From assembly GCA_913056255.1 (NCBI GenBank), contig CAJXLN010000002.1, positions 33,698-97,697 of the forward strand: 64,000 bases of DNA, given 5' to 3'. A program made the translations under genes and the position numbers. How positions within the stretch are numbered: position 1 is the stretch's first letter; every line of letters starts with the position of its first letter. Source of the DNA: an uncultured Thermotogae bacterium. Its GTDB lineage: Bacteria > Thermotogota > Thermotogae > Mesoaciditogales > Mesoaciditogaceae. Shown one piece after another: positions 36,625 to 56,587 of the stretch. Below the pieces are notes generated by a model. It worked only from the letters and a program-made list of their open reading frames with translations. It searched no databases and was not told the origin of the DNA.

Positions 36625-36733
36625 TTGTTCAAATTGTTTCATAAAAAATCAGAAGTTTTTGAACCAAAGTAAAAAACGCACGTCTAAATGTTGAAATACC
36701 CCCCTATCCCCCTTAATACTAGTGAATATTTCT

Positions 36734-36767
36734 AAAAAAGCGGGCTGCCCAGCCCGCCTTTCTTTTT
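36734..36767. terminator. orphan bidirectional terminator
   Basis: GCGGGCT and AGCCCGC form a perfect 7-bp stem. The stem has six A residues on its left and CTTTCTTTTT on its right, so it can terminate on either strand. It sits between two divergent promoters with no gene facing it. Confidence 0.7.
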
Positions 36768-36791
36768 ATGTTTTCAATTTAAGGTTTTTTC

Positions 36792-36820
36792 TTGACAAAT
36801 TGTTTTTTATATGGTATCAT
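36792..36820 (+). promoter_or_regulatory. promoter of the asparagine-synthetase-like gene
   Basis: TTGACA (36792-36797), a 17-base spacer and TATCAT (36815-36820) with TGG in front form a near-consensus promoter. Transcription would start around 36827, about 12 bases before the leader's ribosome site. Confidence 0.88.
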
Positions 36821-36852
36821 TTTTTAAAAGTTCTAACCGGGAGGTACTAATT

Positions 36853-36924
36853 GTGTTCAAGTACATGGTTATCACTAAAATGAATAACAACGATAATTCG
36901 ATTGACATCGGTCAATCGGGTTAA
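36853..36924 (+). CDS. Asn-rich leader peptide (23 codons)
   Basis: A short frame starts at GTG 36853, seven bases after GGGAGGT (36839-36845), and ends at TAA 36922-36924. The peptide begins MFKYMVITK and continues MNNNDNSIDIGQSG. It has four Asn codons in a run of five (codons 11-13 and 15) with one Asp between them. It lies just downstream of a strong promoter and just before competing RNA hairpins, as do his, trp and thr leader peptides. Its role would be to make the ribosome stall when charged tRNA-Asn is scarce. It is too short to find by similarity, and the inference rests on the arrangement. Confidence 0.82.
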   Translation: MFKYMVITKMNNNDNSIDIGQSG

Positions 36925-36990
36925 TCATGTAATTCAATATAAAACCCAATGGCCGGTGACAGTTAAAAAGTCACCGGCCTTTAATTTTAT
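36899..36990 (+). promoter_or_regulatory. transcription attenuator controlled by the Asn leader
   Basis: Three mutually exclusive structures are visible. Pause hairpin 1:2: CGATTGAC (36899-36906) with GTCAATCG (36911-36918). Antiterminator 2:3: CATCGGTCA (36906-36914) with TGGCCGGTG (36950-36958), nine pairs including two G-U, extended by GGGTT (36918-36922) with AACCC (36943-36947). Terminator 3:4: GGCCGGTGAC (36951-36960) with GTCACCGGCC (36970-36979), ten perfect pairs, followed by TTTAATTTT. A ribosome stalled on the Asn codons (36883-36897) would cover segment 1 and free segment 2 to form the antiterminator. Confidence 0.85.
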
Positions 36991-37006
36991 CAGGAGGTGT
37001 TTCAAA

Positions 37007-37924
37007 ATGGACAAACTTAAAAGTGTGCAAGAGGCTCTTAAGGTTAAAAAAGAAGTCTTAGAAATCTCAAGCGAGTTGATCTCCTTAATGGGACAATTCC
37101 TTAGGAGAAATGGATTCATCGAGATCTTACCAGTGATAATATCTCCAATCACAGATCCGCTGAATCATTCTGTTTTTGATGCTACAATAAAATACTATGA
37201 TGGGAGCTACTCTCTCACCAAATCCATGATATTTCATAAGCAGCTGGCAATGCGTATTCATCCAAAGATCTTCTCATTCTCACCAAACGTACGATTAGAA
37301 ACGGAAGACAAGAAAGACAGCGGACGTCATCTTATCGAATTCACTCAAATCGATCTTGAAATGCGTGAGGCAACACGCGATGATGTGATGACTCTTGTAG
37401 AAGAAATGTTAAAAGATGTATTCGAAAAATTAGAAGAAGAGTTTGGAACTCTGTTAAGGGAAATGAATTCCCATTTTTCAACGATAAAGCCTCCATTTAA
37501 ACGCGTTAAATATCTTGAAGCTCTGGAAGAATATGGACCAGATTTTGAAAGTGTGCTTTCGAAACGCGCCACTCAACCTTTTTGGCTAATAGACATTCCC
37601 GTCGATGATCGCGAATTTTATGATAAACTTGATGCTACTGGTAAGACATTGCGCGATATGGATCTCATTTATCCGTATGGTTTCGGAGAAGCGTCATCCG
37701 GTGGAGAAAGGGAGTATGAATACGAAAGTGTTCTCCGACGCATGAAATACAAAGGAAATGATCTTGAGTCAATGAAATGGTACCTTGAAGAGGTGAAAAG
37801 GGGGATCCCTTCATCGGCTGGATGCGGAATCGGCGTCGAACGACTTACACGATTTGTTTGTAATCTCGAAGACATAAAAAACGCCAGACTTTTTGCAAAA
37901 AAGCCTGGTGAGCTTTCAATTTGA
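37007..37924 (+). CDS. asnA: asparagine synthetase of the AsnRS-related (archaeal-type) class
   Basis: The 305-residue protein is a class II aminoacyl-tRNA-synthetase-like catalytic core without the N-terminal anticodon-binding OB domain of AspRS/AsnRS. Motif 2 is VRLE (R96, E98) followed by GRHLIEFTQIDLEM, and motif 3 is GCGIGVERLTRF (about 271-282). This pattern fits the AsnRS-derived ammonia-dependent asparagine synthetase described in archaea, which makes Asn from Asp, ATP and ammonia. The Asn-rich leader upstream supports a role in asparagine supply. AGGAGGTG (36992-36999) fixes ATG 37007; the frame is open upstream, but that would translate the terminator. A role in tRNA or protein modification is an alternative. 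Confidence 0.8.
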   Translation: MDKLKSVQEALKVKKEVLEISSELISLMGQFLRRNGFIEILPVIISPITDPLNHSVFDATIKYYDGSYSLTKSMIFHKQLAMRIHPKIFSFSPNVRLETEDKKDSGRHLIEFTQIDLEMREATRDDVMTLVEEMLKDVFEKLEEEFGTLLREMNSHFSTIKPPFKRVKYLEALEEYGPDFESVLSKRATQPFWLIDIPVDDREFYDKLDATGKTLRDMDLIYPYGFGEASSGGEREYEYESVLRRMKYKGNDLESMKWYLEEVKRGIPSSAGCGIGVERLTRFVCNLEDIKNARLFAKKPGELSI

Positions 37925-43865: not shown

Positions 43866-43917
43866 TTGATTTCCCTTTTTAACCATGCCAAACACTTCTC
43901 CCGAGTGTCGAGAACAT

Positions 43918-44072
43918 TCAAAACAGGCAGGTCTCCTGACTCCCGAGTCATCCTTTATCTGCACCTTCCCAGTTTCCCAGTGGCATTTCGCAGATATCGT
44001 CATCGGTTACAGTGGCGGGACCGTGCCGGAATTTCACCGGACTTCCCTTTTAAACTTTCGTACCTGTTCCGT
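43918..44072 (-). ncRNA. cobalamin (adenosylcobalamin-type) riboswitch
   Basis: On the minus strand the aptamer has the conserved B12-box (GTCAGGAGACCTGCCTG, plus-strand 43924-43940) and the core GAAATTCCGGCACGGTCCCG, followed by CGCCACTGTAA and the GCCACTGGGAAACTGGGAAG element. P1 closes with AACAGG pairing CCTGTT (43922-43927 with 44063-44068). A terminator and btuFCD follow, so the switch represses corrinoid uptake when cobalamin is abundant. Confidence 0.95.
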
Positions 44073-44077
44073 TGGTT

Positions 44078-44106
44078 ATTTTAACATTTCAGAATCGTTT
44101 TTCCAA
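44078..44106 (-). promoter_or_regulatory. promoter of the btu operon
   Basis: On the minus strand TGTTAAAAT (extended -10, 44086-44078) has TTGGAA 17 bases upstream (44106-44101). The predicted start near 44071 coincides with the 5' edge of the riboswitch P1. Confidence 0.7.
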
Positions 44107-56285: not shown

Positions 56286-56501
56286 TATTGGTTGAAGAGA
56301 TGAGCTACACGTTCCGCAGCAAAAATGAGATAAGATAGAAATTTCTGTGTATGGAGCAAAGAAATCTTCGCTTGAGCGAGGATCGATGAATAAATTCTTA
56401 CAATAATCACTGTAATCTAAAAAATGATCTTTTGAACATTCTCGTCGGAGCTTTTTTGGAATTTTTATTGAAAGTGTTAAAATTCAAGTGAATATGAATT
56501 T

Positions 56502-56568
56502 CTTGTATAATCCCGGGAATAAGGCTCGGGAGCTTCTACCAGATGACCGTAAATCGTCTGACTACAAG
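56502..56568 (+). ncRNA. purine riboswitch aptamer, guanine class
   Basis: P1 is CTTGTA/TACAAG (56502-56507 with 56563-56568), P2 TCCCG/CGGGA (56511-56515 with 56527-56531) and P3 CAGATGA/TCGTCTG, with the canonical loops AATAAGG and CCGTAAA and the junction TTCTACC. The specificity base in GACTAC is C, which pairs guanine; adenine switches have U there. It lies upstream of a purE remnant, glnA, guaA, guaB and purB-purA. Confidence 0.95.
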
Positions 56569-56587
56569 AGGGATGATAGGTGTGTAG

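Follow-up and report, generated by a model that had tools for sequence, protein, structure and literature searches.

The window analysed here (the whole stretch of DNA, 64 kb) comes from a Mesoaciditogaceae (Thermotogota) genome placed via its nearest named relatives, and carries on its forward strand a leader followed by an asnA-type gene. The sigma-70-type promoter (36792-36820; TTGACA-17-TATCAT, extended -10 TG, 11 of 12 matches) has hexamers identical to those upstream of the leader in G014, G015 and G016. A Shine-Dalgarno sequence, GGGAGGT (36839-36845), precedes a leader peptide ORF of 23 codons (36853-36924; GTG start, MFKYMVITKMNNNDNSIDIGQSG, stop codon TAA at 36922-36924), which has orthologous ORFs in 46 genomes of the phylum and contains the control codons AAT AAC AAC GAT AAT (36883-36897; Asn-Asn-Asn-Asp-Asn, NNNDN), i.e., four Asn codons among five. 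The end of the ORF is overlapped by a pause hairpin (1:2), CGATTGAC-ATCG-GTCAATCG (36899-36918), and the antiterminator, a 9-bp and a 5-bp helix in computed folding, pairs its 5' arm (36906-36922) with a 3' arm (36943-36958) that overlaps the 5' arm of an intrinsic terminator (36951-36989; stem-loop 36951-36979 and the T-rich tail TTTAATTTTA). The three pairings exclude one another, as the earlier note on this DNA had proposed, with computed energies of -9.3, -17.2 and -19.7 kcal/mol for pause, antiterminator and terminator, respectively (-4.9, -9.3 and -13.2 kcal/mol at 58 C). The Shine-Dalgarno sequence of the gene, AGGAGGTG (36992-36999), is not enclosed in the terminator, an arrangement that argues for regulated transcription and against regulated translation initiation. 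Promoter, GGGAGGT, 23-codon ORF, stop codon, pairings and gene thus all lie where the earlier note had placed them.

Just 5' of the promoter (36700-36769) stand ATACCCCCCTATCCCCCTTAATACT and a G+C-rich hairpin; ATACCCCCCTATCCCCCTTAATACT is present in G015 too, and the hairpin recurs with altered arms in G014 and G015. Elsewhere in the window, Rfam models identify a cobalamin riboswitch (43909-44082, minus strand) and a purine riboswitch (56483-56584, plus strand).

The gene (37007-37924, plus strand; ATG at 37007, 37007-37921 without the stop codon) encodes a protein of 305 aa consisting of the class II synthetase core only, with no anticodon-binding domain. It scores 381.9 bits against the equivalog model NF005054, 'asparagine synthetase A' (curated cut-off 309), and its closest PDB matches are 1nnh and 3p8t, the latter deposited as an archaeal asparagine synthetase A. 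The asparagine-synthetase-like assignment made earlier can thus be narrowed: judged by these profile and structure matches, the gene is a short archaeal-type, AsnRS-derived asparagine synthetase (AS-AR) and not a bacterial AsnA or AsnB, its catalysis being inferred. The agreement of the amino acid read in the leader with the product of the gene, which the earlier note had drawn upon, holds for this enzyme and counts for an attenuator. AsnRS and GatB are both present in the same genome, and AsnB was not detected in this assembly, which is 89% complete. AsnRS occurs in 47 of the 49 genomes with AS-AR, although it is frequent in Thermotogota regardless (89 of 103 genomes); where it is present, tRNA-Asn charging can follow free Asn.

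Conservation of the Asn codons and the pairings

A close AS-AR match occurs in 49 of 103 Thermotogota genomes; two of these 49 have no readable upstream region (in G009 the contig begins inside the leader; in G054 only a gene fragment is available). The leader is present in all 47 remaining genomes: 46 have an Asn-codon ORF with a downstream terminator, and in the 47th, G034, the leader model matches some 600 nt 5' of the gene. We based the codon counts on 49 leaders, among them an additional copy from G023 and those of two MAGs that carry the label Caldisericum. Orthologous leaders lacking Asn codons, which would have refuted the original proposal, were not encountered: at least four clustered Asn codons are found in 40 leaders, three in four and two in five, four of the last being Mesotoga-type. 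The clusters hold 255 Asn codons (195 AAT and 60 AAC), one Lys codon and four Asp codons. Moreover, ORFs in which a stretch of seven codons includes four or more Asn lie upstream of 38 of 48 Thermotogota AS-AR genes, and upstream of none of 41 archaeal and none of eight Caldisericota/Bipolaricaulota-type AS-AR genes. The peptide outside the Asn run varies between families, while the frame, the Asn codons and the pairing logic are kept.

Since a joint alignment of the Mesoaciditogaceae- and Kosmotogaceae-type leaders offsets the pause loops by about two columns, each family was scored for structure on its own. Among ten Mesoaciditogaceae-type leaders, 96.7% of the pairs in the pause helix are standard, with six both-side changes; for the terminator the figures are 98.0% and five. 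None of 500 shuffles reached the covariation score of either helix. In the antiterminator of these leaders 94.4% of the cells pair; its columns hardly vary, and therefore covariation says nothing about it. Compensatory pairs are also found in Kosmotogaceae-type leaders. The Petrotogaceae antiterminator is built from the first arm and the loop of the pause hairpin (94.4% of cells paired, three both-side changes), and the terminator of this family shows eleven both-side changes. The check for covarying stems that had been called for is thus passed by the pause and terminator stems, and is uninformative for the nearly invariant antiterminator columns of the nearest relatives.

The effect of ribosome position was assessed by computed folding of the nascent RNA, taking the pairing frequency of the terminator 5' arm in the 49 leaders. 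A ribosome at the Asn codons left this arm paired at a frequency of 0.72, a ribosome at the stop codon at one of 0.27; the difference is 0.44, whereas shuffled spacers gave 0.17 (Wilcoxon p = 3.5e-11, overstated because the rows are related). For the window leader alone, 0.74 and 0.27 were obtained (p = 0.08), and in G002 the difference has the wrong sign. The Aminicenantia leaders described below were left out, since the automatic terminator finder chose weak, spurious hairpins there.

Other leaders in Thermotogota and Aminicenantia

Covariance models made from the leaders and searched over the phylum recover the AS-AR leaders together with others, whose downstream genes were named by reading their sequence, except for aspartate--tRNA(Asn) ligase, which was named by a model cut-off. 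An Asn leader with a terminator directly precedes glutamine synthetase-like genes in two Mesoaciditogaceae genomes (L140, G010:C41:81547-81658, minus strand; L141, G008:C1:1948219-1948329, minus strand) and in G100 (L162, C97:68843-68973, minus strand), an example of the peptide in this group being MFAFFRMNNNNNNNNPIGTGRLG, followed by the stop codon. The same arrangement stands before ammonium-transporter-like genes (L155, G048:C1:1972414-1972504, plus strand; L176, G046:C10:62851-62941, plus strand), where the peptide ends in SSNNNNNKQRRLKTL before the stop codon; copies scoring equally occur in three more genomes of the genus (G047, G049 and G050), in which the neighbouring genes were not read. 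The placement of Asn leaders ahead of glnA and amtB suggests that some of these bacteria monitor their nitrogen status through the charging of tRNA-Asn. Leaders with DDD and a terminator (L171, L179 and L170 in G007, G006 and G053) precede a gene above the aspartate--tRNA(Asn) ligase cut-off and are, on sequence grounds, the Asp counterpart of the Asn attenuator. Further leaders contain Met codons (L144, L145, L149, L152, L153, L159; their genes include MetQ-like and aspartokinase-like ones), His-His (L146, L148, L157), Cys-Cys (L147), the aromatic FWFYY (L163) or TTTT (L173), each followed by a terminator and a matching transport or biosynthesis gene. Judging from these predicted leaders, leader-peptide attenuation seems to be general in Thermotogota.

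The genome of the window itself has a WWW leader with a terminator upstream of a tryptophan-synthase-beta-like gene (L142, G000:C8:46461-46604, minus strand), a trp attenuator. At L150, L151 and L154 a conserved leader containing TLNNQPEPK and a terminator precede a citrate-synthase-like gene, and the amino acid read is unclear. The weak covariance-model matches are of more than one kind. Some are attenuators that read other amino acids; others (L165-L169, L174, L175, L177, L178, L158) resemble coding sequence or ordinary terminators and were rejected.

In G018 a Kosmotogaceae-type Asn leader (L143/L164, C1:791979-792103, plus strand) stands beside a different gene and has no asparagine gene adjoining it. 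Both the AS-AR gene of this genome and the leader in front of it are of the Petrotogaceae type. We infer that gene and leader may have moved together, and the Kosmotogaceae-type leader is perhaps a remnant left after gene replacement.

A second architecture was found in Aminicenantia and relatives, where AS-AR is preceded at 17 loci by ORFs ending in NNNVPF before the stop codon, or similar (L048, L057, L059, L064, L067, L070, L081, L083, L084, L086, L088, L091, L094, L095, L098, L102, L104); such a leader is present in all 13 cases with a located AS-AR gene. The stop codon is spanned by a hairpin, GUCCCC..GGGGAC; these leaders have no intrinsic terminator that could be clearly recognized. The next 60 nt are C-rich and G-poor (C 0.22 vs. 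G 0.13), a composition that fits Rho without proving its action. In a midpoint-rooted AS-AR tree the Thermotogota, Aminicenantia and leaderless Bipolaricaulota-type genes group together, and the archaeal and Caldisericota genes stand apart; given this grouping, one origin of the leader cannot be told from two.

Proposed mechanism and alternatives

The logic of ribosome waiting and read-through is established for trp and his attenuation, and the window leader has the parts that it requires. The sequence offers a translatable ORF with start, Shine-Dalgarno sequence and stop, its translation being inferred; clustered, conserved codons for the amino acid of the downstream gene; a pause hairpin overlapping the ORF; an intrinsic terminator before the structural gene; and, by computed folding, an antiterminator that cannot coexist with the terminator and whose formation depends on where the ribosome stands. 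We therefore hold with high confidence, in the absence of expression data, that the leader is a ribosome-mediated transcription attenuator of the trp/his type, sensing charged tRNA-Asn and controlling the archaeal-type asparagine synthetase. The earlier idea of an attenuator like those of his, trp and thr, keyed to asparagine, thus finds support in the observed leader conservation, the 255 Asn codons and the covarying stems, and in the folding.

The action itself is inferred. The ribosome would translate the 23 codons while RNA polymerase transcribes the leader. When Asn-tRNA-Asn is scarce, it would wait at the Asn codons and cover the 5' arm of the pause hairpin, so that 36906-36922 could pair with 36943-36958, sequestering the terminator 5' arm and allowing read-through into the gene. 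With Asn-tRNA-Asn in good supply, the ribosome would reach the stop codon (36922-36924) and mask the antiterminator 5' arm, the terminator would form, and transcription is predicted to end near 36985.

It might be argued that the run of Asn codons arose by chance in A+T-rich DNA and that the hairpins are a mere terminator or insulator unrelated to translation, given that the leader is A+T-rich, that AAT repeats expand easily and that five leaders have just two Asn codons. We regard this as very improbable. The four Asn codons in five noted earlier are confirmed, and an ORF with a Shine-Dalgarno sequence and at least four Asn in five codons arose in only 2 of 2000 dinucleotide shuffles of a 446-nt segment; in the whole window, on both strands, only one other such ORF exists (start 49806). 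Moreover, 36 of the 49 leaders use both AAT and AAC, and the Lys codons AAA and AAG are almost absent, which indicates that the amino acid is kept and not simply an A-rich repeat. The absence of such ORFs from the archaeal orthologues and the change of pairing with ribosome position also speak against chance.

It is likewise very improbable that we are dealing with a riboswitch for a metabolite or a tRNA (e.g., T-box-like) and that the ORF is incidental. A terminator and an antiterminator are both present, and Asn control in Firmicutes uses T-boxes; however, Rfam models gave nothing relevant for the window leader at gathering or permissive thresholds, including no T-box, the leader is only about 160 nt long with conservation limited to three stems and the codons, and families that differ in peptide sequence outside the Asn run still preserve the peptide frame. 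Finally, a leader-peptide attenuator might respond to the general nitrogen state or to Asp rather than to free Asn. The leaders before glnA and amtB in relatives would fit this, as would the Asp codon inside the run of the window leader and of G016, but the clusters contain 255 Asn against 4 Asp codons, and the Asp-rich leaders stand before another gene, aspartate--tRNA(Asn) ligase, which indicates that Asn and Asp are read separately; we consider this explanation very improbable. We hence retain the reading of an attenuator that senses charged tRNA-Asn.

Relation to known systems and meaning

Like the trp, his, thr, leu, ilv and phe attenuators of Proteobacteria, the window leader combines a short translated leader containing codons for the pathway product with overlapping pause, antiterminator and terminator helices, followed by a biosynthetic gene; unlike them, it reads Asn and sits in Thermotogota. 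The Rfam Trp, His, Thr and Leu leader models have no detectable match in it, except for a chance-level Thr leader match (14 bits vs. a cut-off of 55). In Firmicutes, control by Asn is exerted through T-boxes, and the T-box of asparagine-related genes likewise governs Asn supply via tRNA-Asn charging and a terminator; it differs in binding the tRNA directly, without translation. A survey found no T-box in its Fusobacteria/Thermotogae genomes (2008; PMC2494555). Two other leader-peptide systems are comparable: the uORFC-8-2 motif of cysS in Rhodobacterales, also a predicted attenuator for a less usual amino acid, differs in reading Cys, in belonging to alphaproteobacteria and in preceding a tRNA synthetase gene (PMC8632094), and the His leader peptides of Bacillus hisS/hisZ, also found by comparative genomics outside Proteobacteria and Actinobacteria, differ in amino acid, in phylum (Firmicutes) and in preceding synthetase genes (PMC2965389). 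Before its own Bacillus His case, the latter paper (2010) regarded leader-peptide systems as known only in Proteobacteria and Actinobacteria, and a later survey (2013) listed His, Leu, Thr, Trp as well as Ile/Val and Phe attenuators, suggesting a gammaproteobacterial origin (PMC3766115). In agreement with the earlier remark that no ribosome-mediated Asn attenuator was known in this group, no description of an Asn leader-peptide attenuator was found in the open literature searched, although an earlier mention in Lopatovskaya et al. (2010) is not excluded. Hence, the kind of mechanism is known from trp and his attenuation, while the Asn specificity and the phylum appear, within that literature, to be new.

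Asparagine would thereby become one more amino acid sensed by textbook attenuation. The mechanism would also be placed in Thermotogota, a phylum distant from the Proteobacteria in which a survey saw its origin (PMC3766115). Moreover, an archaeal-type enzyme is paired here with a bacterial control device that is missing from its orthologues in Archaea. Taken together, it is somewhat probable that attenuation is general in Thermotogota, that charged tRNA-Asn serves some of these bacteria as a nitrogen gauge for asparagine synthetase and, in relatives, for glutamine synthetase and an ammonium transporter, and that Aminicenantia use a second, differently built and possibly Rho-dependent Asn leader on AS-AR.
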